Shown: piece after piece, positions 28,401-64,000 of the stretch
Numbering within the stretch: position 1 is the stretch's first letter
Layout: the number at the start of each line of letters is the position of its first letter
Notes under the pieces: model-generated
Databases searched by the model: none
Told to the model about the DNA's origin: nothing
The model's input: the letters and a program-made list of their open reading frames with translations, nothing else
Virus record (IMG/VR): IMGVR_UViG_3300032236_000879
Coordinates: 19,247 to 83,246 of that record
Length of the DNA stretch: 64,000 nucleotides
From: a virus
Strand: one strand, 5' to 3'
Made by a program: the position numbers and the translations under genes

Positions 28401-31400
28401 CAATCAACGATCAGGATAGAGTAACAATATTCGATAATGGAACAGCCGCAGGGATGTCATTGAATCTAGGTGCCAAAGCATCTATCATTACTTCTTCTGC
28501 ACCTGTTAGAGAAAATATTGTTACACTACGTTTTGATAGAACCTCATATGGATCAAAGATTCAAGATTGGCAAGCCGATTCGTTCTATGGTGCTTATTTC
28601 GCAGGTAGCTATTATAGCGTAGATACAACATCATCTAGTTCTCCGCTTCTATTAGAAAACACAAATCCTGATATTAATACGATTACTGCTTCTGCCGATG
28701 GTGTGACGTTTGAAATTACTAGTGTTTCAAATGAAGAGCAAACCACATGGTCATCTTACACTCGATCGGTGGGTAGCACGATTGCTGCAAATAATGCTAT
28801 CAGACTCATTCCTCAAGATGGGAACAACAATCCATTAGGGGCTGAACCTAATGCATCGGGTACGACAATTGGATTCTATGTAGGAATGCCAATCAAGTTC
28901 CACGGAACTGTCATCGGTGGAATAGTACAGGATCAAGTTTATTATGTTGCACAGGTATTGAATGAGATTGATTTTACTATCTCTGCAATATCAGGTGGAT
29001 CAGTTGTCAGTTTGACAAATTCTACTGCTAATTATCCACTCTATTGCTACACAGGTGAAGTAGTCGATACTGCGCTCATCAATGTAAACTATCCAGGCAT
29101 ATTAACTGCTACTGCAACTTCAGCCAGTAACAATGCGATCACTGTTCCATTGACAGCAATAGGTACAGGCGGTACTAATGGATTCTATCCAGGATTGACT
29201 GTATTTTTTACCGGCACTGATTCACAGTTTACTGCATTTGGAAATGCGATCACTGCAAATGAAGTCTATTATGTTAACACAATAATCGATGAACAAACAT
29301 TCACTATTTCTGAATTCAAGAATCCTACATTTACGAATGTGCTGCATAATGTTACAGAAAATAACACAGTTTACCCTATCACTGCTAATGTAACACAGAC
29401 TATTGGTTCAACCGATATAGTTGTTGTAGATTCTACGCAAGACTTTAATCTACATGATCCTGTGATCTTTAATTCAATGGTTGTCTCTGGGAACCCAGTA
29501 ACAACATTCGGTGGAATCGTTTCGGGAACAGTGTACTACGTAAGTCAAATTGTCAACGGTACTGAAATGAAGATTTCCCAGACATCGACTGGGGTAACAT
29601 ATAATCTATCAGATCAAACAGGTACAGCGATTGCTACTAACCAAAGTAACGTAGTTCAGCTTACAACTGCCACTGGTCAATTGACCCTTAATGTTGCATT
29701 GCCAGTAAGCCCGGGACAAGTCAATGGACAAAAATTAAAGTTCTATCAAACATCAACCCAGTTTACTGGAATAAACACAGGTGTTATTAGCAACCTAATC
29801 AAAACAAGTGTTGATGCTACTATTGGTACTGTAAACAAGATTGCAGTTGGAACAACAACTAATTTCTATACTAATATGCCTGTGCAGTTTGAGGTTGCAA
29901 CAGGTGGGTTGCTTACAGGAACAACTTACTATGTCATAGATTATACAGGCAATGGTGGCATTACTCCTACATTACAGGTTGTTGTTTCAGCTACTTCTTC
30001 GACTGGAAATAAATTGATCTGTAAGTCTGGAACTAATACTGGTGACTTATATGTAAATATGCCATTGATATTCTCCGGTACCGGACTCGGAGGAATCATC
30101 ATCGGTGAAGTATACTACGTCAAAAGTGTAGTAGATAGCACACACTTCACGGTCTCGCTATCTCCGGGCGGAGCTACATTAACTTTAGCAAATGACTCAG
30201 GGTACATGTTAGGTACCGGGGATTCTTATATCACTGTTTCACTCACACCCGGTGGTTCTCTCGTATCATTGTCTACTAGCACAACCGCTTCAACATTAGA
30301 TCAGATTGTCACTGCTACTCCTACATTTGATATTTCTTATATACTCGGTGGATATAGAGCAATCATTGCAAACGGCGGAACAGGTTTTGCAGTAGATAAC
30401 GTGATCACTATTAGTGGTACTGCGGTCGGCGGAGTATCCCCTGCAAATGATATTATAATAACAGTTGCTGCGGTTGACACAAATGGTGCAATAACCAGTA
30501 TATCTCTTGCAGGTAATCCGCCCGACATTGAGTTGAGTTATTATGTGAAAGTAGTTTCTGCAACAGGATTAGAACTCTACCAAGATTCACTTTTATCTAT
30601 TCCAGTAAACGGTAAGACATTACCATATACAGGATTTACAAGTGCTAATGTAACTCAAACAAGTAGCACCGGAAATATTATTACAGTATCAAGTTCTACT
30701 GCATTCAGTATAAATGATGAAGTCATTTTTACTGGAAACGTGATCGGTAATATCGTATTAGGTCAACCTTACTACGTGATCTCAAAGCCATCATCAACAC
30801 AGATCAGAGTATCACAATTGCCAAATGGTTCACCGTTCAATCCAGGCAATGCAACAGGATCATGCTTAGTGACGAAGCCAGGAAGCTTTGCATATCTACC
30901 TGAACCATTCTACTTCCAACCATCTATCATCAGATACAATAACAGGCTATATGAATGCTTAGTATCAAATAATGATCCTGAGTTCGTGTTCGGTAAATGG
31001 CAATTGATTGATTCGGGTGCTCGCAATATCAATGCAATGGACAGAGTCATTGGTTACTATCAACCAACTGCAAATATGCCAGGCAAAGATTTAACACAAT
31101 TGTTCGAGGGCGTTTCATATCCAAACCCAATCTATTATGGTAATGCTTTCCAACCATCACAGCAATTCGAGCTAGATACATTATTACAAGATCAACCATT
31201 CTACCCTACCGGAGTTCAACTTACTTCAGTCGTATACAATAACGGTGAATACTATGCTGCATCAAATCTAACAGATTATTCAGCAGTATTGTATAGTACA
31301 GACAACGTAAATTGGGCATTGACTAAATTGAGTAGCGTGAATGTACACACAACTGATATCATTTATCACAATAGTGTCTATGTGATGACTTCGAATAATT

Positions 31401-34400
31401 CTGCAACACCTATCTTTAGAAGTAGCAATGGAATCGATTGGAGCACTAACGGATACTTCACTCCTTGGGGAGCAGACGGTTGGTCTGATTTCAACTATGA
31501 TATGACTTCACTGAATGTTGCTGCACTTGCATTAAACAGTGTAACGACATTTAATAACTTCTGGTTTGCAGCAGGTGATAGTATCGTGTCTAGCAATGAC
31601 ACATATGTCTGGGGCAAGGTACATTCTTATCCTTCTGCAAACGCAGTGACACTATATAGCATTGCTTCTGTTTCGATTCCTAATTTTACAGGATTGATTG
31701 CAGTAGGTAAAGGGTTGAGACTCGACTATTCTACTGGAACAACTCAGCTAGTCCCTACAGATATTATCTCAACTAGTACAGACGGGTTGATCTGGCAAGA
31801 CCTTGCCTCGCTCACTGATAAAACATTCCGCGCAGTGGCAGCTAATACAAACAGAATCACTGTTGTTGGTGACAGCGGAGTTATCTACTACTCTACTGAT
31901 GGAATAAACTTCTTAGGATTGAATGAAGCAACAGTAACTAACGTAGATGACGCGAATAACATTCTATCGTTAACCAACACTGCTGGGCTGACCGTAGGGG
32001 ATACTATTAGATTCACTACTGCATTTTCATCTATTCTAGCAGGAACAACATATTTTGTCAAGAGCATCATCAGCCCGACAAGAATAACAATTTCTGCTAC
32101 ATTAGGCGGTGCCACTAAAACATTGACTCCTTATGCTATCAATAGTCAAATCATCGCATATAAGTATGATCCAGCTAATCCAAATCCGAATGCATTGTAC
32201 AATATCATCTATGCTAATGATCTCTGGGTAGCAATCGGTGCTGCAGGAACAATCAAGACTTCTTCAGATGGTATGTCATGGACTGTACGTTCATCAGGTA
32301 CAACACATAATCTGAACGGTATTATTTGGTCAGGTACAGAATTCACAGTAGTAGGTGATAACAATACAGTAATAACTTCTACTGATGGCATCACTTGGTC
32401 GGGCTCAACGATATTCAGTGTCTTGCCTTCAACATATGATGTCAAGGGAGCAGATTTCCAATACGGATATGCACCGGAAGAACTCGTTGCAGGAAATGTT
32501 CGTGATGATCTAGCGATGACAGTAGTCACCCGTCCCGGAACAAACTGGGATGCAGCAGAATATTCAAACGTTGGATATAATGTTATATCTATTGAGGTTG
32601 CACCGAAAACACAAACACAAACTATCTATAACTTTGATCGTATTGTTCAAGTTCCAGTACAGGTATCAGTACAAGTACTAGATGCATCTACTATGTTAGG
32701 AACAACACTATCACCGACTCAGTATAGTGTAGACTGGGTGAACAAAAATATCATCCTAAACTCTCCTATCTCATTCACTCCTGACATGCAGAAGTTGAGG
32801 ATTGATATATATGAAGTTGGAAATGGGGAACAGCTAGTAAAAGCAAGTACACATAATGATCCGATCAGAACTAACGTAGATACCGGATTTAACGAGATTT
32901 ACTTAAATTGTAATTACAGTGCTAACATCTTTAATGGTAGTGGTGTGATCAAACCCGGTTCATTTGATCTAACAGTGACTGCTGTTGCAACAGATAGCAT
33001 TACCAATTCAATAACGTGCGATGATGTATCCCAGTTTTCAATTGGACAAGCGGTGACATTTACAGGGGTGGTATTTGGAAACCTACAAACCAATACCACT
33101 TATTACATCAAATCAATCAGTATGATAACTGAATCTATCACAGTATCATTATCATATGATCCTATTACAGGAATCGCAGGACCTACTACAAACTTGACCA
33201 CCGATACAGGAACAATGTCTGTTAACCTAGCATACGGTTCAGATATTCCTTGGACTACTCCTTATGTAGTTCACAATGGAACTAGACTTGTTCAAGGTTA
33301 CTCAAGTCAAGTGACAGGAACGTCTTCTATAACCAATACCGTCATCACTAATTCTACTGCTGGTATGACTGTAGGAATGCCAGTAACATTCAGTAAGAGT
33401 GTGTTTGGTGTGCTTTCTCCTATAACAAGATACTACGTAGCATCAATCATAGATAATAATAATTTCACTGTTTCTGCAACTCCTAATGGATCAACAGTGA
33501 CCCTTACTGATGCAGCAGGTGCAGCATATTATATCACTAATGATTTCGCATTTGGGTTACAGCCAAACAAAATTCAAGCAACACTCATATTTGCAACTGA
33601 TACATATACTCGTGCAAATGATTATATTGCTTACTCTGTGTTCGGGGAATCTGAACCAGCAGAATACGGATATACTGTTCCGGAAAGACAAGAATTTGTA
33701 GCGAACGGAACTACAGTAGCATTCACCTTAGGTAACTATGTCGGTGGTGATAACCCAACAAATGCAATCGTAGAGATCAACGGGATTCGTCAATCGTCAT
33801 CCAAATACACTATTAGCTTTGGTACTAATAGTGTTATATTTGCAACACCTCCTGCAAATGGTGCGATTGTCGCAGTCACGAGCTACAATGTCACTGATCG
33901 TCAATATCTAAATAGCCAATACGGTATCACAGGTAATGTTGGAAGTGCATTTGCTACTTTTGTGGTAGGACAAACTAACAACGTGACCGGAACATGGGAT
34001 CAAAATTCACCGTCCGCGCAGACATGGGATGAGAATTCTCCTTCAATTATCTCGTGGGATGAGCAACAAAATTGGTTGACATTAAGTTCAGGTACTACAG
34101 GAGTATTGCACGTAAACGATCCTATCATCTTTAGTGCTCCTACTATCGGTGGACTCGTTGCCGGACAAACATACTATGTGACTCAGATTCTTGACACAAG
34201 TAATTTTGTGATTTCTGCTACATTGGGTGGTCCGGCAGTCGTATTAACTAACGATACCGGATCAATGACTGCAAATGCGAATGCGTTGATCGTTGCTCAG
34301 ATCACTAACATAAACAATAACATTACATCTCCTATTGCAGATACAGTTGCTACTGCTACAGCGACCGGAACTAATAGAATAACAGTACTAAGCACGAGCG

Positions 34401-50560: not shown

Positions 50561-51958
50561 GTGTCAGAATCAGAAGTTGATAGAATTAAGCGTATTAGAG
50601 ATTATATAGATGTTGATGCTACTAAGACTTTCTGTTTAGCAAAATGGCATCATGTTACTATGTATTTACAGAGCGGCGAGACACACTCTTGTTACCATCC
50701 GCAACCACATAAAGTTCCTTTAAGCGAACTTGCTGAAAACCCGTCTGCATTGCATAATACTATGTATAAGAAACTTGAGCGCAAACAGATGCTAGCAGGA
50801 GAGAAGCCTTCTGGGTGTCAGTACTGTTGGAATGTGGAAGCAATGGGTCCTGATTATATCAGTGACAGACACATTCGTAATAGTTCTATCTTCACTGAGG
50901 AAAGATTCAATCAGACCGCTAACGGACCTTGGCATCAAAATATTAACCCGGAATATCTTGAGATCAACTTCGGCAACGAATGCAATTTCAAGTGTGGTTA
51001 TTGTCATCCCAAGTATTCGACTTCTTTTTTCAAAGAAATCGAGAAGTTCGGTCCAGTCACCGGCGTCAAAAATCATCGATGCGATGTTGACTGGATGAAA
51101 TTATATCAACGTGAAGAAGAAAATCCTTATGTTGATGCGTTCTGGAAGTGGTGGCCAGAACTACGCAAGACTTTAAACATCATGCGTGTTACTGGGGGAG
51201 AGCCAACATTGCACAAGTCTACTTGGCAATTGTTAGATAAAATCGATGAAGACCCGATGCCTTGGTTAGAGTTGAATATCAACTCTAACCTCGGTACTAA
51301 GAATATTCTGATTGATCGCCTAGCAACTAAAGTAAAGAAGCTGGTAGATGAGAATAAGATTCGTTCATTCAAGTTATTTACTTCTGTGGATACGTGGGGA
51401 CCTCGTGCAGAATATATTCGTACTGGGCTAGACTTACAAACATGGGAAGAGAACTTCCACACTTATCTGCAAAAGTCTGACTCTGCTATTACCTTCATGA
51501 TCACGTTCAACATCTTCTCAGTTACCTCTTTCAAGTCTCTGTTAGAGAAGTTCCTTGAATGGCGCAAGCAGTATGGTTGGTTCGAGGATCGTAAAGAACA
51601 CAAGGTTCGTTTTGACACTCCATATCTACGTGAACCGATTCAGTATGATATGAACATCTTGCCTAAGGAAGAGTTCATGCCCTACATGTATGAATCGCTA
51701 CAGTTCATGAAGGATAATCTAGACGATAATCGTCCTGACGCCTTCTCGACAATCGAATATGAGAAGTTCAAGAGAGTCGTTGACTACATGGCTGAAACCG
51801 TCTATACTGATGAGAAACTGATTGAAGGTCGCCGTGACTTCTACAATTGGTTCAACGAACTGGATGATCGCAGAGAGAATGATATGCTCTCAGTCTTTCC
51901 AGAGATGATGGATTTTTATAGGCTATGTCAAGAAATCAATATTACCAACCCTCTATAA
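50561..51958 (+). CDS. radical SAM protein of the phage 'twitch' type
   Basis: 465 residues from GTG 50561 (AGGAAC upstream). The cluster motif C141-x3-C145-x2-C148 (NECNFKCGYCHPK) binds the 4Fe-4S cluster that cleaves SAM. RVTGGEPTLH is the GGE motif for the SAM amino group. The N-terminal part holds extra cysteines (SGCQYCWN; SCYHP), typical of an auxiliary half-SPASM 'twitch' cluster. Proteins of this type are known in large phages; substrates are not known. Here it lies among sugar enzymes, so modification of a peptide or glycan precursor is a guess. Overlaps the next gene by 34 nt. Confidence 0.85.
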   Translation: MSESEVDRIKRIRDYIDVDATKTFCLAKWHHVTMYLQSGETHSCYHPQPHKVPLSELAENPSALHNTMYKKLERKQMLAGEKPSGCQYCWNVEAMGPDYISDRHIRNSSIFTEERFNQTANGPWHQNINPEYLEINFGNECNFKCGYCHPKYSTSFFKEIEKFGPVTGVKNHRCDVDWMKLYQREEENPYVDAFWKWWPELRKTLNIMRVTGGEPTLHKSTWQLLDKIDEDPMPWLELNINSNLGTKNILIDRLATKVKKLVDENKIRSFKLFTSVDTWGPRAEYIRTGLDLQTWEENFHTYLQKSDSAITFMITFNIFSVTSFKSLLEKFLEWRKQYGWFEDRKEHKVRFDTPYLREPIQYDMNILPKEEFMPYMYESLQFMKDNLDDNRPDAFSTIEYEKFKRVVDYMAETVYTDEKLIEGRRDFYNWFNELDDRRENDMLSVFPEMMDFYRLCQEINITNPL

Positions 51959-52188
51959 ACTCGTACGTGACAAGCATGGCCGTTTTCAATGCTATTGACG
52001 ACGGGTGGTCTATGATTGGTACGCACATGCCTACTAGCCAAAAGGTATATGCAGTCAGAAATGATATAGCCAGATGGATAGAAACACAACCACCTCACAT
52101 GTGGAAGTTTTATGATGTAGATAATATGCTGAATTGCTACCTGCTTAGTGAAGAATTACTATCATGGATGATATTGAAATGGCGATAG
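51925..52188 (+). CDS. hypothetical protein, 87 aa
   Basis: Starts inside the radical SAM gene in another frame; an alternative ATG at 51976 would avoid the overlap. Contains FNAIDDGWSMIGTHMP and HMWKFYDVDNMLNCYLL. No signal peptide and no family recognised. Its position suggests co-expression with the radical SAM enzyme. Confidence 0.5.
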   Translation: MSRNQYYQPSINSYVTSMAVFNAIDDGWSMIGTHMPTSQKVYAVRNDIARWIETQPPHMWKFYDVDNMLNCYLLSEELLSWMILKWR

Positions 52189-52221
52189 AGTTCTAGAAAC
52201 CTTTTGGCATCATTCAGCAGA

Positions 52222-52229
52222 ATTAAATA
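52222..52229 (+). promoter_or_regulatory. possible late promoter octamer
   Basis: ATTAAATA, two mismatches to TATAAATA, 25 nt before the ATG at 52255. Predicted start near 52235. Weaker than the others. Confidence 0.35.
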
Positions 52230-52254
52230 GATTTACAAATTTAGGAGAATAATC

Positions 52255-52524
52255 ATGACCGTAGTAAGCAGCGATAATTTTATTGATCATGATACTGGAA
52301 AGAAGGTATCTAAGATCATCGAAAAGTATATGGACACTGAACTGTCTGAAGAAACATGCGATCTAGTTCTAGAGGATATCCGAGAAACCTTTAGTCAGAA
52401 TCACTTTGCAGAAGTATCTGTTGACACAGATACCGGTGAGATCGCAGTCATCATTGAAGATAAGAATAACCGACTACTGAAGTGTACATCACTTCAGATA
52501 TTAGAAACAAAGAATGATCGATAA
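52255..52524 (+). CDS. hypothetical protein, 89 aa
   Basis: A good TAGGAGA binding site precedes the ATG. Acidic protein with a helical first half (DHDTGKKVSKIIEKYMDTEL) and a beta hairpin (EVSVDTDTGEIAVIIEDKNN). No recognised family. Lies between the radical SAM unit and the putative transferase series. Confidence 0.6.
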   Translation: MTVVSSDNFIDHDTGKKVSKIIEKYMDTELSEETCDLVLEDIRETFSQNHFAEVSVDTDTGEIAVIIEDKNNRLLKCTSLQILETKNDR

Positions 52525-52576
52525 AACACAAATTGAAAAACCAGGAATAGATATTATCACACTGAAGTTCCATGTG

Positions 52577-52584
52577 AATAAATA
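52577..52584 (+). promoter_or_regulatory. late promoter octamer 5 nt before an ATG (leaderless geometry)
   Basis: AATAAATA, then AAAAC, then the ATG at 52590. No Shine-Dalgarno upstream. Confidence 0.55.
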
Positions 52585-52589
52585 AAAAC

Positions 52590-53903
52590 ATGTCAGAACA
52601 TGTCAAAATTGTATATAGTTGGATAGGACCTAGGGGTCCTATATGGAACACTGAACTCCCGAATATATTAACACTTGCTCATGCTAGTTATGATGCACAC
52701 TTAGAAACCCATCGGGTTTGGACAGATCAATTGTATCATAAACTATTTAGGAATTGCAAAGAAAAATTCCAACTTTCTTCGACTGTTGATATCACGAAAG
52801 ATGATCTATTCATCTATCCTTTTTCATTGACCTGGAGAATAAATTTTGAGAATTACTTCCAACCGGATGAAGGAATACTTGAATTCTCACACACTCCGAA
52901 TAGCATCATTGATGCTGTAAAGTATGGTAAAGGATTCTTCTTGATCGATCACTCACTTGAGTCATTTGTTCAGTACAATCATCTAAGCAAGATGCATTTT
53001 TATTTCAGTAATGCAGGTATTCCGTTAAACAAAATTATATATGTTACTGGTTGCATGAATGCTGATGAAGCATATCACTATTTCTTGCAAGCATATAATC
53101 TCTCAACTAATCCCAAAGATAAATTAAATCTAGTTTCTTATCCTACGCATCAAACTAATATGTACCGTGTTATACATCGTACAAGACTTGATCCAGTTTA
53201 TGATACCGAAACTGTTCCTTCAAAGTTATTCTTGACCTGGAATAGGAGATTTAGGTCGCACAGAATCAATCTCATGCTAGGTCTAGAAAAACTAAATCTT
53301 GTAGATCGATCTTTTGTAAGCATTGGGATAGTCGACCCCGAACAAGCACATCTCACTTTTGCACAAGTTGCAGGAGACGGTAATCCTGCATTAGGTACCG
53401 ATCGTTCGCACGTGGAGAGATTTTTTAGTAGGCTACCGCTTGAACTAGATCATGAAACTAGCCTGCCAGATATGTGTTCTGACATGTCGGGCAAGACTAG
53501 AAATTTTTATTCAAATAGCCTTCTCAGTATCGTGACTGAAACTAATTATGAAGCAAGAGAAGTCACTACTACAGAAAAGACATTTAAGCCGATGATACAT
53601 CGCCATCCCTTCATCATGGTAGGTGCTGCTAAAACGCTAGCTTCACTGAAGATTCTGGGTTATCAGACATTTGATAGGTGGTGGAGTGAAGATTATGACA
53701 ATATTAATGATCCAAACGAAAGAATGCAAGAAATATTGCGGGTGTGCGAAGAAATAGGAACTTGGTCACCCGAGAAAATTTTGCAATTCAAAAGAGAAGT
53801 GAAGCCAGTACTTGATCATAACTTTAGTGTTATGAGTAAAGATATTGCCGAAACAGTGGCTATAAATATTGATAAAGTTGTTAGACCGACAGATGGATTA
53901 TAG
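52590..53903 (+). CDS. putative glycosyltransferase of the TEKTFKP family, copy 1
   Basis: 437 residues, first of three relatives in this island (also 55452 and 58376). The shared C-terminal part reads SIVTETNY, TTEKTFKPMIHRHPFIMVGA, then LGYQTF and a conserved acidic stretch before an Arg. The E-K-T-F-K-P and H-P-F pattern resembles the nucleotide-sugar binding end of GT10/exostosin-like transferases, but I cannot assign the family with certainty. Preceded by a leaderless-type late octamer. Overlaps the FkbM gene downstream. Confidence 0.6.
   Translation: MSEHVKIVYSWIGPRGPIWNTELPNILTLAHASYDAHLETHRVWTDQLYHKLFRNCKEKFQLSSTVDITKDDLFIYPFSLTWRINFENYFQPDEGILEFSHTPNSIIDAVKYGKGFFLIDHSLESFVQYNHLSKMHFYFSNAGIPLNKIIYVTGCMNADEAYHYFLQAYNLSTNPKDKLNLVSYPTHQTNMYRVIHRTRLDPVYDTETVPSKLFLTWNRRFRSHRINLMLGLEKLNLVDRSFVSIGIVDPEQAHLTFAQVAGDGNPALGTDRSHVERFFSRLPLELDHETSLPDMCSDMSGKTRNFYSNSLLSIVTETNYEAREVTTTEKTFKPMIHRHPFIMVGAAKTLASLKILGYQTFDRWWSEDYDNINDPNERMQEILRVCEEIGTWSPEKILQFKREVKPVLDHNFSVMSKDIAETVAINIDKVVRPTDGL
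53861..53868 (+). promoter_or_regulatory. late promoter octamer (exact TATAAATA) before the FkbM-type gene
   Basis: An exact consensus octamer inside the 3' end of the upstream gene. Predicted start near 53874, 19 nt before the ATG at 53893. Because it lies in coding sequence it could be chance. Confidence 0.45.
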
Positions 53904-54495
53904 TCAATACCAAGAACAAGAATATATTCTAGAATATTTTGGTTCTAGCACGGGTACTTTTCTAGATGTCGGAGCAGCAGACGGTATCACATTTAGTAAT
54001 GTTTATCAATTACTATTGAATGGTTGGTCTGGAATATCCGTAGAACCTGAAACTCGGACTTTTAGAACTTTAATCCATAACTACAAGCGATTTGGATCAC
54101 GCTCAGAGTTAGTAATGTCCGTGATAGATAAGCAAGAAGGCTTTGTAACCTTCTATGAAAACGGACAACTTAGTTCTACTTCGACTGAGCATATGGTTAA
54201 TTGGGAATGGCATAGGCTTAAGAATGGATATGAATGGAAACCCGTTACTCACTATGCAATCACGTTTGATACTCTGTTAAAGAATTATTCTGCTCGTAAT
54301 TTTGACTTCATCAGTATTGACCTAGAAGGACAAAATAGTAGCATAGTTCTTTCCACTGACTGGAATCTCGCACCTGAATGTAAATTGATTTGTATCGAAC
54401 ATGATCAAAATTGGGATCCAATTATTAGTTATCTAGAGCAATATGGTTTTAAGTTCTATCAAAGAACCCCTGTTAATATATTAATGAGTAGATGA
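53893..54495 (+). CDS. FkbM-type methyltransferase, copy 1
   Basis: 200 residues from the ATG at 53893; a TTG at 53869 would extend the frame by eight codons. Motif I is FLDVGAADG, then GISVEPE at the end of strand 2, and DFISIDLEGQNSS for the later core strand, the FkbM pattern (DIDxEG). These enzymes O-methylate sugars. Starts within the preceding gene and ends 1 nt before the epimerase ATG. Pairs with the TEKTFKP protein, as does copy 2 at 56561. Confidence 0.82.
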   Translation: MDYSQYQEQEYILEYFGSSTGTFLDVGAADGITFSNVYQLLLNGWSGISVEPETRTFRTLIHNYKRFGSRSELVMSVIDKQEGFVTFYENGQLSSTSTEHMVNWEWHRLKNGYEWKPVTHYAITFDTLLKNYSARNFDFISIDLEGQNSSIVLSTDWNLAPECKLICIEHDQNWDPIISYLEQYGFKFYQRTPVNILMSR

Positions 54496-54496
54496 T

Positions 54497-55459
54497 ATGA
54501 AAAACATATTAGTATGCGGCGCCGGTGGATTTATTGGATCACACCTAGTAGAAAGCCTAAAAGTACAAGGACATTATGTAGTAGGAGCTGATCTAAAGTC
54601 TCCGGAATATTCTGATACTAAAGCGAATAGCTTTTATATAATTGACCTACGTGTTGCTAATAATGTGAATACATTATTTGATTATCATAAATTTGATGAG
54701 GTTTATCAATTAGCAGCAGACATGGGTGGGGCTGGATATATTTTTACAGGCGAACATGATGCAGATATCATGCACAACTCTGCTATAATCAATCTAAATG
54801 TCCTAGATGCTATGAAAAAGTACGGAGTAAAGAAGGTGTTCTATAGCTCAAGTGCTTGTATGTACCCATCACACAATCAAGAGGATCCGGACAATCCTCT
54901 ACTAACAGAAGACAGTGCTTACCCTGCTAATCCAGACAGCGAGTATGGTTGGGAAAAGCTATTCAGTGAACGCTTGTATATGAGCTATGCACGTAATTAT
55001 GGAATTGAAGCTCGCATTGCACGTTTCCACAATATCTTTGGCCCGCTCGGATCATGGAACAATGGTAAAGAGAAAGCACCGGCTGCACTATGTCGCAAAG
55101 TAGCAATGGCTGAAGACAATAGTGAAATAGAGATTTGGGGACCCGGTAATCAGACACGTTCATTTTTATATATTGATGAATGTATTGAAGGCATACATCG
55201 TATTATGGAAAGTGATTGCACCTTACCATTAAATCTCGGCTCAACAAGAATGATTAGCATCAACGATCTAGCCTTATTAATAGCGAGTCTCACTAACAAG
55301 AAAATCAAAATTAAGAACATAGATGGACCGGTTGGCGTTATGGGTCGCAACAGCGACAACACATTGATTAAAGAAATGATTGGCTGGGCTCCCGGTGAAG
55401 ACTTGGAAGCAGGATTGATCAAGACTTATCAATGGATATCAGAACAACTCAATGTTTGA
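54497..55459 (+). CDS. GDP-mannose 3,5-epimerase-like enzyme
   Basis: 320-residue extended SDR enzyme. GAGGFIGSH (8-16) binds NAD. SSSACMYPS holds C121, Y150-x3-K154 is the SDR pair, and KEKAPAALCRK holds K193. These match the epimerase residues of plant GDP-mannose 3,5-epimerase (Cys145, Tyr174, Lys178, Lys217 in Arabidopsis). FHNIFGP and VMGRNSDNTLIKEMIGWAP are also close to that family. The product would be GDP-L-galactose and/or GDP-L-gulose. This gives the island a supply of an unusual sugar nucleotide. Overlaps the next gene by 8 nt. Confidence 0.85.
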   Translation: MKNILVCGAGGFIGSHLVESLKVQGHYVVGADLKSPEYSDTKANSFYIIDLRVANNVNTLFDYHKFDEVYQLAADMGGAGYIFTGEHDADIMHNSAIINLNVLDAMKKYGVKKVFYSSSACMYPSHNQEDPDNPLLTEDSAYPANPDSEYGWEKLFSERLYMSYARNYGIEARIARFHNIFGPLGSWNNGKEKAPAALCRKVAMAEDNSEIEIWGPGNQTRSFLYIDECIEGIHRIMESDCTLPLNLGSTRMISINDLALLIASLTNKKIKIKNIDGPVGVMGRNSDNTLIKEMIGWAPGEDLEAGLIKTYQWISEQLNV

Positions 55460-56561
55460 TTCGATTGATTTTCCTCTAGAGGAATGGATACATGTTTATT
55501 GTAATGCTGGTCTATCTCCATATCCACTTCTGTCTGACGCTGATAAAATAATAGAGGAAATAAATCTTAATCCTAATCGTAATAAGATTATATTCATGGC
55601 ACACGGTGACGGGTTCACTGTACACTTTAATACATTTAGTGAGATCGCACGACGCATAATGAATGGCACTGGCATACCATTAGAGAACATTGCGATAGTG
55701 ATCGGCTCTCAATGCACGAAAGAAACAATCGAGTTATATAAGAAATATATAGAAGAATATAATTGGCTTCCGATCAGATTGGTTCTCAGTAATACATGGG
55801 AGTATTCATCCGGTAAACGTATTAGAGCAAACCCCGAATCATATGATCAATTCGATACTACGCCTAGAGTCAAGGATCATCTTTTGTTATGCTATAATAG
55901 AGGACAGAAATTTCATCGATGGTATGTAATTGCTGAATTGATTAAGCGTAACTTACTTTCACGTTCGTTCGTATCTGCATATCACACAGTAGATGAATTA
56001 GATCCTTACACTATTGAGGATCGTGTGGGGGCAGGTCTCACTGAAGAACTCTACGATATACTATGTGAACATAAAGATATTTTTCCATTGAAGCTATCAA
56101 TGAAGGACTTCGCTGAAGCAGGTGAAAAACAATATTCACCTTTAGGTGACGATGTAGCATACTTTAATAATAGTTATTTTAGTCTGATTACTGAAACACT
56201 ATACTACGGTAAACAGTTAAATGGTTGCGGTCATATACCCTCGCACTTTCTAACTGAGAAGACGTTCAAAGTAATCGCAACCAAGCATCCGTTTATTCTT
56301 TTGCAATGGCCAGGCACACTAAAATCTCTTAGAAGAATGGGATATAAAACGTTTCATCCTTATATCGATGAATCATATGATGTGATAGAAGATGACGTTC
56401 TTAGACTAAATGCTATCATGGATGAAGTAGAACGATTATCTAAGTACACAGATGAACAGTGGTTGGAGTTCCAACACAACATAGAGTCAATTCTTCTTCA
56501 TAACTTCAATGTACTTCAGGCTTCGAAGCAACAACATTTAACTTTTAAGGATTTTATTTAA
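55452..56561 (+). CDS. putative glycosyltransferase of the TEKTFKP family, copy 2
   Basis: 369 residues. Shares with copies 1 and 3 the block SLITETLYYGK, LTEKTFKVIATKHPFILLQW, MGYKTFHPYIDESYDVIEDD and an Arg five residues later. The N-terminal half (IIFMAHGDGFTVHFNTF) has a Rossmann-like start. The stop overlaps the following ATG (TAATG), forming the same transferase-FkbM pair as copy 1. Confidence 0.6.
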   Translation: MFDSIDFPLEEWIHVYCNAGLSPYPLLSDADKIIEEINLNPNRNKIIFMAHGDGFTVHFNTFSEIARRIMNGTGIPLENIAIVIGSQCTKETIELYKKYIEEYNWLPIRLVLSNTWEYSSGKRIRANPESYDQFDTTPRVKDHLLLCYNRGQKFHRWYVIAELIKRNLLSRSFVSAYHTVDELDPYTIEDRVGAGLTEELYDILCEHKDIFPLKLSMKDFAEAGEKQYSPLGDDVAYFNNSYFSLITETLYYGKQLNGCGHIPSHFLTEKTFKVIATKHPFILLQWPGTLKSLRRMGYKTFHPYIDESYDVIEDDVLRLNAIMDEVERLSKYTDEQWLEFQHNIESILLHNFNVLQASKQQHLTFKDFI

Positions 56562-57199
56562 TGTCAGATATCAGTTTAAAATGGTTAGTCGAAAACTTCC
56601 CGGAGAAGTGTAATTTTTTTGACATTGGCGCTGCTAATCTTAGCGACACCGTTACCTTCAAACAGCTTATGCCGAACAACACTTATTATGCATTTGAGTG
56701 TTCAGATATATGGAAAGAACAGAACATCATTACTGCTGAACGGTATGGTATTAATTACTTTCATCTAGCAATGTCTGACACATCAGACGTAGTGCAGTTT
56801 TATCCGTCAATAAAAAATCATGAGGGCAACGATTGGCCATGGTCAGGTAGCATATATGCACCCGGCACTTATCTAGCTACGACAGGGTTAGAATTTGGAG
56901 AAGGGTATACGGTGCCAAGCATTACACTGAATGAATTCTGCAAAGAACATCCGGCTCCAGATTTTATTCATATTGATGCTCAGGGTGCAGAGTACTCTAT
57001 TTTTAAAAATATGGAAATAAGACCATCTGCAATATGGGCTGAGATTTCTGCCTTCCATCTATACGATACTTCGGTGACATATCAGCAGTTTAATGATATG
57101 ATGTTGAGCTATGGCTATAAGCAAGCATATTTGGATAATAATGATTCCTTATATATACGTAGCGACTTAATTTTTACTGACTACCCTAACAGCAAATAA
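56561..57199 (+). CDS. FkbM-type methyltransferase, copy 2
   Basis: 212 residues. NFFDIGAANLSD is SAM motif I; DFIHIDAQGAEYSIFKNME is the FkbM DIDxxGxE motif. Only distantly similar to copy 1 outside the motifs, so the pair is not a recent duplication. Probably O-methylates a sugar made or transferred by neighbours. Confidence 0.85.
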   Translation: MSDISLKWLVENFPEKCNFFDIGAANLSDTVTFKQLMPNNTYYAFECSDIWKEQNIITAERYGINYFHLAMSDTSDVVQFYPSIKNHEGNDWPWSGSIYAPGTYLATTGLEFGEGYTVPSITLNEFCKEHPAPDFIHIDAQGAEYSIFKNMEIRPSAIWAEISAFHLYDTSVTYQQFNDMMLSYGYKQAYLDNNDSLYIRSDLIFTDYPNSK

Positions 57200-57202
57200 A
57201 TA
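57195..57202 (+). promoter_or_regulatory. late promoter octamer 5 nt before an ATG (leaderless geometry)
   Basis: AATAAATA, then TCAGC, then the ATG at 57208. It overlaps the stop of the upstream gene. No Shine-Dalgarno. Confidence 0.55.
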
Positions 57203-57207
57203 TCAGC

Positions 57208-58398
57208 ATGAGAAAAGTAGCAATGATCGGCGTAGGTAAACTAGGCCAAGACTGTGCCGAAGTAATGGCAGAACATTATGATGTTGTAGGATACGATGTG
57301 GAACCTCGTAGTCCAACATTTCCCATGCGGGCTTCTATTAAAGAAGCAGTAGAAGATAGAGATATAATCTTTATCGCAGCTCCCACTCCGCATGATCCTA
57401 AATATGGAGGAGAGACTCCTACTAGCCACTTAAATCCAAAAGACTTTGATTATACTATAGTCACTGGCATTCTAGAAGAAGTTAATAAGTATGTTACGCA
57501 AGATCAACTAGTTGTGTTGATCAGTACAGTACTTCCCGGTACAGTACGTAGATTATTACGCCCGTGTATTACTAATGCACGTTTCATTTATAATCCATAT
57601 CTTATTGCAATGGGTACGGTAAAGTGGGATATGGTTAATCCTGAAATGATTATTATTGGTACAGAGGATGGTAGTGAAACCGGAGATGCGGCAGCATTAT
57701 TTAAGTTTTATAAACCACTTATGAAGAACCGTCCTAGGGTAGAGATTGGTACTTGGGATGAAGCAGAAGCTATCAAGATTTTCTACAATACATTTATTAG
57801 CACTAAGGTTGCGATTGTTAATATGATTCAGGACGTTGCAGAGCGTAACGGCAATATGAACGTTGACGTAGTGACTAAGGCTCTTGCTAACTCAACATAT
57901 CGTATTACTGGCCCGGCGTATATGACAGCAGGGATGGGTGATGGTGGCGCGTGTCACCCTAGAGATAATATTGCACTGCGATACATGGCTGAAGAGCTTG
58001 GTTTGGGCTATGACTTGTTTGATGCTATCATGTATGCAAGAGAACAACAAGCAGAAAACATGGCTATGAAGATTCTACAATATGGTAAGAATGTTACGAT
58101 CATCGGGAAAGCATATAAGCCGGGTGTACACTATACTAATGGTAGTGCAAGTATGCTAGTTGGGCATTACGTTGAAGCCCTCGGTGGCACTGTCAACTAC
58201 TATGATGTGCATACTGGTGACACTGATCTTAAAGAAGGATGGACAGAAGTATATCTAATTGGATATTGGGACAAATATGTTGAGGCATTAGAGTTCCGTA
58301 TTGATAATATTGCTACAATTATTGACCCATGGCGCAAGTTTAATAAAAACAAAGCATCGGGGCAAGTGATTCATTATGGCAATACACGACAAGTATAA
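57208..58398 (+). CDS. UDP-glucose/GDP-mannose dehydrogenase family protein
   Basis: 396 residues. The N-terminal NAD fold has GVGKLG (8-13). The central region has FYNTFISTKVAIVNMIQDVA and the active-site motif GGACHPRDN with C249, equivalent to GGxCFPKD. The C-terminal domain has IIGKAYKPGVHYTNGSASML. Members oxidise the C6 alcohol of a sugar nucleotide to a uronic acid in two steps. The His in place of Phe after Cys is a variant. Overlaps the next gene by 23 nt. Confidence 0.82.
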   Translation: MRKVAMIGVGKLGQDCAEVMAEHYDVVGYDVEPRSPTFPMRASIKEAVEDRDIIFIAAPTPHDPKYGGETPTSHLNPKDFDYTIVTGILEEVNKYVTQDQLVVLISTVLPGTVRRLLRPCITNARFIYNPYLIAMGTVKWDMVNPEMIIIGTEDGSETGDAAALFKFYKPLMKNRPRVEIGTWDEAEAIKIFYNTFISTKVAIVNMIQDVAERNGNMNVDVVTKALANSTYRITGPAYMTAGMGDGGACHPRDNIALRYMAEELGLGYDLFDAIMYAREQQAENMAMKILQYGKNVTIIGKAYKPGVHYTNGSASMLVGHYVEALGGTVNYYDVHTGDTDLKEGWTEVYLIGYWDKYVEALEFRIDNIATIIDPWRKFNKNKASGQVIHYGNTRQV

Positions 58399-59553: not shown

Positions 59554-59895
59554 ATGCACTTTAATCTTATTCCGCTAACTAACAAAAACACTGCCCCCAA
59601 AACAAAACCTACAGAAGATATCTCGGGCAATCGTTCACTACTCACCTGTCATATCATAAAGGATAAAGTAATGACATCAAGCGAAGACACAAGTTCCGCT
59701 CATTTACGCCAGTCATTCTGGAGGAGCTATCTTCTGAATATTTTGATATCCCTTATAGCCGGAATAACCCTAGGTATATGCCAATCATCATTACTTGTAG
59801 GCATCCTGACTTATTTCCTGCTATTGTTTATATTAACAGGACTTCTAGTATTCAGACTGACTCGAAAGCTAGCTCAGGAATTAAACGACTACTAG
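59554..59895 (+). CDS. small membrane protein with two transmembrane segments
   Basis: 113 residues from ATG 59554. Two hydrophobic helices (ILISLIAGITLGICQSSLLV and LTYFLLLFILTGLLVFRLT) occupy residues ~62-105. A second ATG at 59671 (MTSSEDTSS) has an excellent AAAGGA 7 nt upstream, while 59554 has only the leaderless-type octamer, so two forms of 113 and 74 residues are possible. The 3' part may overlap the start of the next gene. Function unknown. Confidence 0.55.
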   Translation: MHFNLIPLTNKNTAPKTKPTEDISGNRSLLTCHIIKDKVMTSSEDTSSAHLRQSFWRSYLLNILISLIAGITLGICQSSLLVGILTYFLLLFILTGLLVFRLTRKLAQELNDY

Positions 59896-59912
59896 AACAT
59901 TGGTATTACAAC

Positions 59913-62900
59913 ATGTTGAGAGATGTATTTTACTACGGCGCTAAACCAAACGTCCATCCACGAGAAAGATTTGCGGAATCACTAGCAGATGCTAGGCAAA
60001 AATGCACAACAGATAGCTTTTGGATAATCAATGAGTTCTGTGATTATCGTGGTTTTGATTGGGACTTTGATTTTGAGTTCCTACCGGACGAAGATGTATG
60101 GGCAGAAGAACACAACAATGTCTGGCCAAGTCAACATCAAAAAGATTCAGGTACATGGTTGTGTCCTAAAGAATTTAGTGCTGTCATCATTTATCGCGGT
60201 GACGTAGAACCTGTTCGTCGTAAAAATCTAAAGTCTGACAACTGGGCAGAACTAGACTTAATTGACCCGTCATTTGATTTCTCATGGCATCCTGATCCAA
60301 CTGCACCTCCTTATATCTATAAGTGGGGATGTAAATTCTTTCCTGTACAGCTTAAGTCTGTGCTAGAATATCACACTCCGGGTGCTACTGAAATCAAGTA
60401 CATGACTTCTATTGTCGAGTTATTGCCTGAAGAAGATAAATGGGTCGAAGCACAGTCAATCGATAAACATAAGTTTGATATGTCGTGGAGACCTAATCCA
60501 CTTGATCCACCATTCATCTACGTATGGGGAAACAAGTGGATTGATGGCACTCTAAAGTCTACTCTAGAATATCATGCGCCGGGTGCAATTGATAGAAAGT
60601 ATATGTCTGAAAAGTTAGAAATTCTACCTGAATGGGATAAGTGGGTAGAAGTACAGAAGGTCGATCACACGAGATTTGATTTCTCATGGAGACCTGATCC
60701 CAGAGAACCTGCGTATATCTATACTTGGGGTAATAAATGGATCGCTGCTGAAGAACTACCTACATTAGAATATCATATGCCGGGTGCAATTGATAGAAAG
60801 TATATGACCAATGATGTTCCTGTCCTTCCTGAATTAGATAGATGGAAGATACTCAAGAAGATTGATGAATCTAGTTTTGATTTCTCATGGAGACCCGATC
60901 CTAGAGAACCTCCTATGACCTATGTTTTTGGCAATCAGTGGTATGATGCAGGTAAGATGCCTACTATCATGTATACAATGCCTGAAGGTCATGATATCAA
61001 GTATATGGATACGTTCAAAGCTAAGCTAGCAAATGATTCTAGTAAGTATGAACATCTTGAAGCTGCATTCTTGGATGATTATTCTTGGGTACCTGATCCT
61101 GATTCACCCCCGTACATCTATGCATGGGGAAATCAGTGGAATAAACCTGAAGATAAAATCAGCATTCAATATACTGTGCCCGGTGCAACTGAATACAAAT
61201 ATATGGAAAAACGAGCAACTCGTCTACCTTCCATGAAGAATTGGTTGATTCCTGATAATATAAACATTGAAGGGTTTGACCTTTCATGGGAACCTGATCC
61301 TCATTCTCCTCCTTATATCTATCAATTTGCTACACTATTAGATGATATATGGGTAGATGATGGGCCTAAGTATATCACTCCTGGCAATGATGGGGTTGTT
61401 GTTCGATTAGAAAATTCTATTCTACACACCGAAAAAATAAGCTATCCAAAATATATGATAGAAACTACTCTAGCTGATTTAATAAAAGAACATCCTACAG
61501 AAATGTTCTGGGCTCTAAATAAGAATATCAATTATGATGAGTTTGATTTTAACTGGACACCGAAAAAGGAAGATTTGTTTAATGTGACAGTTTTTGGTTC
61601 ACCGGAGAGTGAAACGACTCACACATACTTTGTCAATGCAAAGTATTATTTAGAAGGATATACCGGATTTAAATTTATTGAAGAAGATATAACCGCGGAT
61701 GATTCTAAGTATCTAGCTAAACTTTTTAAAAAACCAGATATGTTCTATGTTGATAGAAGCAATCCTGAATCATCAGTTAGATTTGAACAATTAAAATCAA
61801 GATTTGGAAATAAAATACAGAAGACTCGTTACCTAAATAGTTGGGTAGATACTATTAACCGCTGCATCAATCGTTCTACTACTGATTTGATTTGGATACT
61901 CAACTCAGAACTTGATTATTCTGATTTTGATTTTGACTATTATCCTAATCCTTGGCAGATGGAAATGGTACATGTATTTGGTACACAGTGGTCACATTGG
62001 GGAACTACCTTCATGGTCAATCGTGAAACTTTTCCGGTTGATACAAAATACATCAAAATTGTCGAACATCTTTCCAATCTCAATTTTGTCAAACATATTC
62101 GTGCTAAAGCTACAGCATGTGTGCATGATGTCATCATGATTGACCACGGTAATACAGACTTAAATGTAATAACTAACCAGATAGAAAGAAAGACAGGTAA
62201 GTCTGTTGTCACAACAATAAAATATGATGAAAGTTATCTGAATACCTTTAGAAATTTTATCAAGAAGTTACCGGATAAAAAAGAACACTATCTCTGGGCC
62301 TGTTCAAGTATATGTGACTATGCACAGTTTGATTTCACGTATATATGTGATCCTTTTGCCAAAGATAACTTGCATGTATTTCCTAGCGGAGCACAAAAGT
62401 TTGGTGATACATTCTTGATCGATGTGAACAAGACTAAAGCAATCATCGATCAAATGGAGAAGCTAGAAGAATATGATAAAGTTAATTTCAATAGCACGAT
62501 CAAGACTGAACGCCTTCCGGAACCGATCATCATCACAATGGATGACACCCATGTCGATGCTATCAATAAGGTTACTGACTTCCCTTATGCAACCATTCTC
62601 ACAAATGATAATGCAGGCATGGACAAGACAGTGATTGAACCTATGAACCTGTGGTCATCTGATACGAAAAACATTATAATCACGAGCACCGGTGCAACAC
62701 GTATTGTTGTGCCACGTGAGGCTAAAGAACACATAAAGAATGAACTCTACGATTATCCATATATCAAACGGGTAGCAAAGCTAACCAAGAGCAGACCGCT
62801 TGATATCATATTTTTGAGCAACGGAGAAACAGGTGCAGATGAAAATTGGGAATATCTGCAAAAAATAACCAAAGGATTACCTAATAGAGTAATCAGGGTA

Positions 62901-63461
62901 GACGGAGTAAATGGACGCGTTGCTGCATATCATGCAGCAGTAACTGCTAGTGAAACCCCGTGGTGCTTCACTGTGTTTGCTAAGTTACATATTAGTGCAA
63001 AGTTTGACTTCAATTGGCAACCGGATCGAATGCAGATTCCAAAGCATTATATCTTCCATGCAAAGAATCCGGTGAATGGTCTTGTTTACGGTCACCAAGC
63101 AATGATTGCATATAATAAGAAACTTACCCTTGCTAATGAAGGTCGAGGGCTAGACTTTACACTAGATGATGCACACGAAGTTGTTCCTCTGATTTCAGGT
63201 ACAGCAAAATATAACACGGATCCGTTCTCTACATGGCGAACAGCTTTCCGTGAAGTATTAAAGTTAAAGGCAGATAACAGCGAAGTATCCCGTGAACGAT
63301 TAGATGCTTGGTTGAACAAAGCTGAAGGTGACTATTCTGAATTTAGTATCAAAGGTGCATTGAATGCCGATGAATACTACGATGAGGTAAATGGTGACTT
63401 TGAAAAACTTAAGTTGAGTTATGAATGGGCATGGTTAAGGCAACGGTTCGACCAAATTTAA
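59913..63461 (+). CDS. large repeat protein with GT-A-like modules lacking the DxD motif
   Basis: 1,182 residues from ATG 59913; the frame is open from ATG 59778 (1,227 residues), but the longer start overlaps the membrane-protein gene by 118 nt. The N-terminus reads RDVFYYGAKPNVHPRERFAE and FWIINEFCDYRGFDWDFDF. Six tandem repeats of about 67 residues follow (FDFSWRPDPREPPYIY-type, then WGNKW and PGA-x-x-KYM). Further divergent modules carry WILNSELDYSDFDFDYYPNP and VHVFGTQW. The C-terminus (RVDGVNGRVAAYHAAVTASE) aligns with the protein at 49010, but DGD is replaced by FAK. Probably a binding or scaffold protein for glycans rather than an active transferase. Confidence 0.72.
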   Translation: MLRDVFYYGAKPNVHPRERFAESLADARQKCTTDSFWIINEFCDYRGFDWDFDFEFLPDEDVWAEEHNNVWPSQHQKDSGTWLCPKEFSAVIIYRGDVEPVRRKNLKSDNWAELDLIDPSFDFSWHPDPTAPPYIYKWGCKFFPVQLKSVLEYHTPGATEIKYMTSIVELLPEEDKWVEAQSIDKHKFDMSWRPNPLDPPFIYVWGNKWIDGTLKSTLEYHAPGAIDRKYMSEKLEILPEWDKWVEVQKVDHTRFDFSWRPDPREPAYIYTWGNKWIAAEELPTLEYHMPGAIDRKYMTNDVPVLPELDRWKILKKIDESSFDFSWRPDPREPPMTYVFGNQWYDAGKMPTIMYTMPEGHDIKYMDTFKAKLANDSSKYEHLEAAFLDDYSWVPDPDSPPYIYAWGNQWNKPEDKISIQYTVPGATEYKYMEKRATRLPSMKNWLIPDNINIEGFDLSWEPDPHSPPYIYQFATLLDDIWVDDGPKYITPGNDGVVVRLENSILHTEKISYPKYMIETTLADLIKEHPTEMFWALNKNINYDEFDFNWTPKKEDLFNVTVFGSPESETTHTYFVNAKYYLEGYTGFKFIEEDITADDSKYLAKLFKKPDMFYVDRSNPESSVRFEQLKSRFGNKIQKTRYLNSWVDTINRCINRSTTDLIWILNSELDYSDFDFDYYPNPWQMEMVHVFGTQWSHWGTTFMVNRETFPVDTKYIKIVEHLSNLNFVKHIRAKATACVHDVIMIDHGNTDLNVITNQIERKTGKSVVTTIKYDESYLNTFRNFIKKLPDKKEHYLWACSSICDYAQFDFTYICDPFAKDNLHVFPSGAQKFGDTFLIDVNKTKAIIDQMEKLEEYDKVNFNSTIKTERLPEPIIITMDDTHVDAINKVTDFPYATILTNDNAGMDKTVIEPMNLWSSDTKNIIITSTGATRIVVPREAKEHIKNELYDYPYIKRVAKLTKSRPLDIIFLSNGETGADENWEYLQKITKGLPNRVIRVDGVNGRVAAYHAAVTASETPWCFTVFAKLHISAKFDFNWQPDRMQIPKHYIFHAKNPVNGLVYGHQAMIAYNKKLTLANEGRGLDFTLDDAHEVVPLISGTAKYNTDPFSTWRTAFREVLKLKADNSEVSRERLDAWLNKAEGDYSEFSIKGALNADEYYDEVNGDFEKLKLSYEWAWLRQRFDQI
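60273..61450 (+). repeat. six tandem 201-nt coding repeats
   Basis: Repeat units begin at 60273, 60474, 60675, 60876, 61080 and 61275, spaced 201, 201, 201, 204 and 195 nt. Each encodes the F-D-F-S-W-x-P-D-P line, a YIYxWGNxW line and a PGAxxxKYM line. Units 2 to 4 are the most similar to one another. Confidence 0.85.
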
Positions 63462-63483: not shown

Positions 63484-63512
63484 TTGACTTACATGAATAA
63501 GATAAGTATATT
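63484..63512 (+). promoter_or_regulatory. sigma70-like promoter overlapping a late promoter octamer
   Basis: TTGACT (63484-63489) and TATATT (63507-63512) are 17 nt apart, each matching consensus in 5 of 6 positions. The late octamer variant GATAAGTA (63501-63508) overlaps the -10. The predicted starts are near 63519 and 63514. The gene behind could therefore be read both by host sigma70 and by gp55 polymerase. Confidence 0.55.
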
Positions 63513-63539: not shown

Positions 63540-63875
63540 ATGAAGAATCTATTAGCAGCAGTTGCAGCACTCTTATTGGTCGCTACCCCCGCATTTGCTG
63601 ACGAGCACCATGAATATCGTGAACATCACGAGTACCGAGAACATCATGATCGCGGAAGCTGGGCAGTGCCTCTTTTAGGTGGTTTGATCGTAGGTGGAAT
63701 TATCGGAAGCCATTATAGAGAAGAACATCCGCACCCGGTATATGTTGCTCCTCGTCCCGTATATAATCCCGCTACTGTGTGTGAGAATTATTATGTGCGT
63801 GATGAGTATGGAAATTATGTCGTTGATCAGTATGGACGTGCTGTTATTCAGCAGCGTTGCTGGCAGCGATACTGA
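63540..63875 (+). CDS. small secreted His-rich protein
   Basis: 111 residues. A classic signal peptide (MKNLLAAVAALLLVATPAFA) ends with an AxA site before DEHHEYR. Three short His/Glu repeats follow (EHHEYREHHEYREHH), then a hydrophobic Gly-rich stretch (PLLGGLIVGGIIGSHY) and a Tyr/Arg/Val-rich C-terminus with two cysteines. TTAGGAG precedes the start; an out-of-frame ATG at 63536 is ignored because only this frame gives the signal peptide. The export signal and possible metal-binding repeat suggest a periplasmic or envelope role during infection. Gene content gives no further clue. Confidence 0.75.
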   Translation: MKNLLAAVAALLLVATPAFADEHHEYREHHEYREHHDRGSWAVPLLGGLIVGGIIGSHYREEHPHPVYVAPRPVYNPATVCENYYVRDEYGNYVVDQYGRAVIQQRCWQRY

Positions 63876-63941
63876 GTATTAGTTGTTGACGTAGACTGAA
63901 AACTAGGCAAGACGGGAGTGCGATTCTCCCCGCCTCCACCA
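63876..63941 (+). ncRNA. ssrA: permuted tmRNA: acceptor piece (3' half, ends in CCA)
   Basis: The 3' end reads as a T-arm (stem GGGAG 63914-63918 and CTCCC 63926-63930, loop TGCGATT), then the 3' acceptor strand CGCCTCC (63931-63937), discriminator A63938 and encoded CCA (63939-63941). The partner strand GGGGGCG lies downstream at 63954-63960, so the gene is circularly permuted. Pairing is perfect over 7 bp with a G-U at position 3, the alanyl-tRNA synthetase identity element found in tmRNA. CTAGGC (63903-63908) can pair with GCCGAG (63990-63995), as a P2 helix, with one G-A mismatch. The 5' end of this piece is not defined; 63876 is only the end of the upstream gene. Confidence 0.8.
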
Positions 63942-63953
63942 TCACTTTCTTAT

Positions 63954-64000
63954 GGGGGCGACCAGTATCGATTGATAGATAATAGGGAAGCCGAGACTAA
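63954..64000 (+). ncRNA. ssrA: permuted tmRNA: coding piece, 5' part only (runs off the window)
   Basis: Begins with the 5' acceptor strand GGGGGCG, continues through a D-like region with TCGA (as in GGATTCGAC of bacterial tmRNA) and ends in GCCGAGACTAA, similar to the conserved GCCGAG at the start of P2. A 12-nt intervening segment (63942-63953) separates it from the acceptor piece. The tag reading frame and pseudoknots must lie beyond base 64000, so the tag peptide cannot be read here. Confidence 0.75.

Follow-up and report, generated by a model that had tools for sequence, protein, structure and literature searches.

The tmRNA is the RNA that frees stalled ribosomes. A survey reported 402 phages with a tmRNA, 133 unique structures and 53 two-piece tmRNAs called by ARAGORN, 50 of the latter from marine or aquatic samples (PMC9004378), and a further study made the family RF04321 and lists 79 phage tmRNA sequences (PMC11915505). 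Since phage permuted tmRNAs have been published, the element described here is of a kind already known. It is located at the right edge of a stretch of 64,000 nucleotides (the window), i.e., bases 19247-83246 of a linear viral record of 83,246 bases, so that the window end coincides with the contig end and the gene is truncated.

Among the described systems, the alphaproteobacterial two-piece tmRNA (RF01849/RF04321) shares with our locus the segment order, the GGGGGCG/CGCCUCC acceptor with G3-U70, P2, and an ANDN-type tag. It differs in its T loop, which is GGCGGUA or GGCAGUA in contrast to UGCGAUU in the window, and the gene in the window is phage-borne. Melnitz, Mosig, and other aquatic phages (PMC9004378) likewise carry a permuted tmRNA in a virulent-looking phage with no host operon, but they belong to another phage group and the window has no match to a glutamine riboswitch. 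CcrRogue and CcrSC, two large phages of the alphaproteobacterium Caulobacter, have the T loop UGCGAUU and the acceptor in common with the window, while their tags (ANDNAPFAVREAIAA and ANDNDVVVSTMTSVKLAA) and intervening segments (104 and 89 nt, respectively) are different and tRNA genes are found nearby. Finally, the betaproteobacterial permuted tmRNA (RF01850) occurs in two related phages, L010 and L012, downstream of a relative of the 1227-aa ORF discussed below; these are RNAs of the beta type (127 and 156 bits) with the tags ANDSTYALAA and ANDELYSLAA.

A cmscan run over the 64-kb window revealed RF04321 (tmRNA_permuted) at 63878-64000 on the plus strand as the only Rfam match (54.5 bits, gathering score 47, E 7.3e-8, 3'-truncated). 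When 63800-64000 was searched alone, alpha_tmRNA also matched but fell short of its gathering score of 50 with 37.3 bits. The initial annotation had proposed a circularly permuted tmRNA carried by a phage genome, and both the RF04321 match and the continuation of the gene in an overlapping contig (see below) bear this out. ARAGORN called neither a tmRNA nor a tRNA anywhere in the window, which is no surprise for a gene truncated by the end of its contig; the complete gene of the related locus L006 and the nearly complete one of the overlapping contig likewise escape it.

The acceptor piece (63878-63941, plus strand, as for all parts named here) comprises the P2 5' strand, the T arm, the acceptor 3' strand, and the encoded CCA. 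GAC and the T stem-loop GGGAG-UGCGAUU-CUCCC with its stem of five pairs occupy 63911-63930, and the acceptor 3' strand CGCCUCC is followed by ACCA, the last base being 63941. The intervening segment UCACUUUCUUAU, 12 nt in length and free of cargo, lies between CCA and G1 (63942-63953); its removal would be expected during maturation. The start of the coding piece (63954-64000) consists of the acceptor 5' strand GGGGGCG (63954-63960, G1 at 63954), the conserved GACCAGUAUCGAUUG, and the beginning of the P2 3' strand. The acceptor and T arm thus precede the 5' acceptor strand, with the intervening segment between them, and all seven acceptor pairs form, including G3-U70. These elements, which had been noticed from the letters, could all be read directly. 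The P2 helix, put forward as possible, holds as well: UUAGU (63879-63883) stands opposite ACUAA (63996-64000), where the 3' strand has only begun, and every P2 pair proposed by the alignment of relatives is standard in the window.

The missing half can be read in a second contig. L026 opens with 105 bases identical to 63896-64000 of the window and continues with the rest of the gene: the resume codon, a tag frame (GCA AAC GAT AAC TAT GCG TAT GAG GGT CTT GCC CTA GCG GCA TGA) encoding ANDNYAYEGLALAA-stop, and the 3' region. It scores 82 bits with RF04321 and 80 bits with RF01849 (alpha_tmRNA), both matches reaching the 3' ends of the models. A second half with a tag frame, matched by both models to the end, therefore follows the position of base 64000, where its absence would have spoken against the proposal; it is read in L026, which represents the same phage or a sibling, and not in the record of the window itself. 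This bears on the possibility that the window holds a tmRNA fragment left by integration at an attachment site or by imprecise excision, and not a working gene. Such a fragment would fit the presence of the first part only; moreover, tmRNA genes are common integration sites (PMC11915505) and ssrA fragments in prophage genomes have been cited (PMC9004378). Yet the truncation is that of the contig, L026 continues the gene as complete, and related phages of this group have the whole gene at the same position. A fragment is thus very improbable, and an attachment-site remnant is rejected in view of the full second half together with the complete genes in relatives.

Genes for a baseplate wedge, a baseplate hub/tail lysozyme, and virion proteins mark the source as a tailed phage. 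Two further features of the window concern its gene content: a single ORF of 6500 codons (16418-35920), whose giant product is of phage structural type and weakly matches FG-GAP and carbohydrate-binding modules, and a sugar-nucleotide cluster (50561-58398) with radical SAM, nucleotide-sugar epimerase, and UDP-glucose dehydrogenase-like genes. Directly upstream of the tmRNA, which starts a few bases past its end, lies a 111-aa ORF with a signal-peptide-like start (63540-63875, plus strand). The sole forward promoter-like match (63484-63512) is located ahead of this ORF, with a score not above that of shuffles, and ORF and tmRNA are probably co-transcribed. In two of the related loci (L005 and L011), a strong-looking promoter precedes the tmRNA by reading (TTGACA, 17 nt, TATATA or TATAAA).

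Further upstream, the 1227-aa ORF (59778-63461, plus strand) serves as a syntenic marker, since its relatives lie upstream of permuted tmRNAs in other phages. They were found at 16 loci, several on contigs of 211-333 kb, and a complete permuted tmRNA is present downstream in 10 of the 15 loci searched with Rfam (L003, L004, L005, L006, L010, L011, L012, L014, L017, and L013, identical in ARAGORN). Two types occupy this place: alpha-type tmRNAs with the tags ANDNYYTEELRLAA, ANDNDFAFELALAA, ANDNNAYEDFALAA, and ANFIASNDNEFVAMEMAA, and beta-type tmRNAs with the two tags given above. Alpha and beta types appear to replace each other here, perhaps tracking the host.

A further explanation is that the contig end is chimeric and that assembly joined a tmRNA from the host or another phage to the upstream genes. 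Another contig, L028, which shares its sample with L026, stops at exactly the last base of the window, and the approximately 126 bases in common are typical of an assembly break. Between the window and L028 the tmRNA is 99-100% identical and most of the aligned flank about 72%, a contrast that speaks for the gene, although high identity at a contig end is partly expected when assemblies break in common sequence; the common end looks like a break within sequence common to sibling phages. However, in L006, L020, L021, and L029 a related tmRNA likewise follows directly on related upstream sequence, which makes the junction itself a conserved one. In addition, the T arm of the window is phage-typical: its pattern was found in only one of 385 Alphaproteobacteria genomes, 359 of which have a permuted tmRNA match. 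A chimeric end is hence somewhat less probable still than a fragment.

The scan for this T-arm type, together with the earlier searches, yielded at least 62 distinct phage permuted tmRNAs, and 62 were aligned. The T stem is paired in all 62, with covariation at three of its five pairs and four pair types at two positions. The acceptor is paired in all 62 as well, an invariance that is not independent because the relatives were chosen partly by the acceptor strand. Most sequences retain the P2 pairs, with substitutions in both strands; since this very alignment also served for the structure prediction, the count leans somewhat towards it. The T loop of the lineage is UGCGA[U/A]U, while the bacterial tmRNAs read, a non-random choice of those with the highest scores and one more, have GGCGGUA or GGCAGUA. 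By sequence, the tmRNA of the window is thus placed in a phage-typical lineage and not with the type usual in alphaproteobacterial hosts. The cultured Caulobacter jumbo phages carry the same type, absent from their GenBank annotation, at 1439-1871 in CcrSC (L039) and 1474-1792 in CcrRogue (L040). In a host lookup, the exact D-segment pattern had two matches in genome contigs (L037 and L038), and no tmRNA was found around either. A tRNA-Ala or chance pairing mimicking a tmRNA can practically be dismissed: the end CGCCTCCACCA is common to tRNA-Ala genes and several of the 15 first pattern matches were ordinary tRNA genes, but the E-value is 7.3e-8 over window and library, ARAGORN finds no tRNA here, and 62 distinct phage sequences repeat the architecture, the majority of them having a tag frame; the conserved second half contradicts such mimicry as well.

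With a probability of roughly 93%, we therefore take 63878-64000 to be the first part of a circularly permuted tmRNA gene that the phage encodes and that works, on the basis of its structure, the tag frame seen in L026, its synteny, and its conservation. Processing, charging, and tagging would proceed as presumed for the family. Host tRNA-processing enzymes would cut the transcript after CCA and before G1, leaving two pieces, acceptor and coding, which the acceptor stem and P2 would keep joined. The expected partners are host SmpB and alanyl-tRNA synthetase; host SmpB is assumed because a search of nine phage records (mostly fragments) detected no SmpB, while control bacteria gave SmpB. By analogy, the tmRNA would rescue ribosomes stalled on broken mRNAs, those of the phage included, and add a tag like ANDNYAYEGLALAA. 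The list of phage groups known to supply a ribosome-rescue RNA of their own thereby grows by one, and the lineage, which sits unannotated in cultured Caulobacter phages, can be tested there.

The intervening segment varies from 12 to 165 nt in the phage set. In the window, 12 nt are too short for a nested gene, and none is present; its tmRNA is a member with an empty slot, in contrast to the close relatives L006 and L020, whose slots are filled. Both contain, within an intervening segment of 135 nt (L006 10146-10280, L020 5259-5393), an ORF of 57 codons (ORF3, beginning MIICICRDIRESHYSNREDLIKRVLEEDYCCGSCLKEFLYD) with a CxC...CxxC pattern. Eight of ten codon changes between the two are synonymous. 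From the Cys pattern, ORF3 may encode a BFD-like [2Fe-2S] protein.

Two further small ORFs are more widespread. ORF1, with the consensus KWM(L/F)RAYI.WSICADITLL.GIIYL.FF-stop (also written KWM(L/F)RAYI(I/L)WSICADITLLAGIIYLVFF), is probably a small membrane protein gene. Relatives were found at 249 viral loci, 80 of which were kept (L191-L270, e.g., L218 and L242), and in 75 of these 80 the ORF sits between the two halves of a permuted tmRNA, 74 of the 75 having a readable tag frame. AAGGAG follows directly after CCA in 68 of the 75 nested loci, and throughout the strict set of 67 loci the stop codon finishes exactly one base ahead of G1. In the predicted fold, the Shine-Dalgarno sequence is part of a helix that prolongs the acceptor stem without a break. 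ORF2 (MNWDWHWISWFKGTPFQWGEF, also MNWDWHWISWFKGTPFQW, at its start) was found at 43 loci (L271-L313, e.g., L272 and L298) and is nested in 36 of them; in most, its stop codon lies within the GGGGGCGAA(C/T)TAG of the tmRNA itself. The neighbours in L298 and L251 are phage-like (PhoH-like, endolysin, exonuclease).

Nearest-neighbour comparison revealed 79 synonymous versus 25 nonsynonymous codon changes in ORF1 and 22 versus 19 in ORF2, where about 22% synonymous changes are expected without selection for ORF1; such pairs are not fully independent, and the overlap of coding and RNA structure also constrains bases. Judged from these patterns, the small ORFs between the tmRNA halves appear to be protein-coding genes under purifying selection in many relatives. 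Some copies stand outside intervening segments (ORF1 in L202-L204, the L202 copy overlapping the start of a tmRNA call; ORF2 in L282, L283, and L304), which argues that ORF1 and ORF2 are genes in their own right. None of the three ORFs matched Pfam or PHROGs, and matches in cultured phages were at chance level. For ORF1, no convincing match was found in 190 alphaproteobacterial genomes; its profile matched two alphaproteobacterial genomes weakly (20-24 bits), and in the one inspected the ORFs were of ordinary bacterial kinds and the match was put down to chance.

One intervening sequence has been described as holding a tRNA gene, which was called unique, and another as holding a repetitive element (PMC11915505). 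Protein genes between permuted tmRNA halves were not found reported earlier in the open-licence literature. We consider it likely that, in the permuted tmRNA genes of phages, the intervening segment is a slot for carrying genes, whose content would be freed as a tiny mRNA by tmRNA maturation, the RNA gene acting as excision punctuation of the nested protein gene. If true, genes nested in permuted tmRNA genes constitute a new gene arrangement, in which protein genes are freed by tmRNA processing, and they offer a testable reason for the usefulness of a permuted tmRNA to a phage.

A tRNA-like stretch in the intervening segment of L153 was not confirmed by ARAGORN. The segment of L034 (134 nt) contains GGAGGAAAGTC, by eye like a conserved RNase P RNA motif, and had no Rfam match beyond tmRNA. 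Bacterial segments are long in three Alphaproteobacteria, L314, L315, and L316 (165, 115, and 92 nt), and look hairpin-like by eye, not like ORFs. In L011, a skipping-rope RNA (RF02924, 46.8 bits, gathering score 36.7) at 13329-13421 overlaps the intervening segment of the permuted tmRNA; either this RNA is cargo, or the overlap hints that some skipping-rope members belong to genes of this kind.
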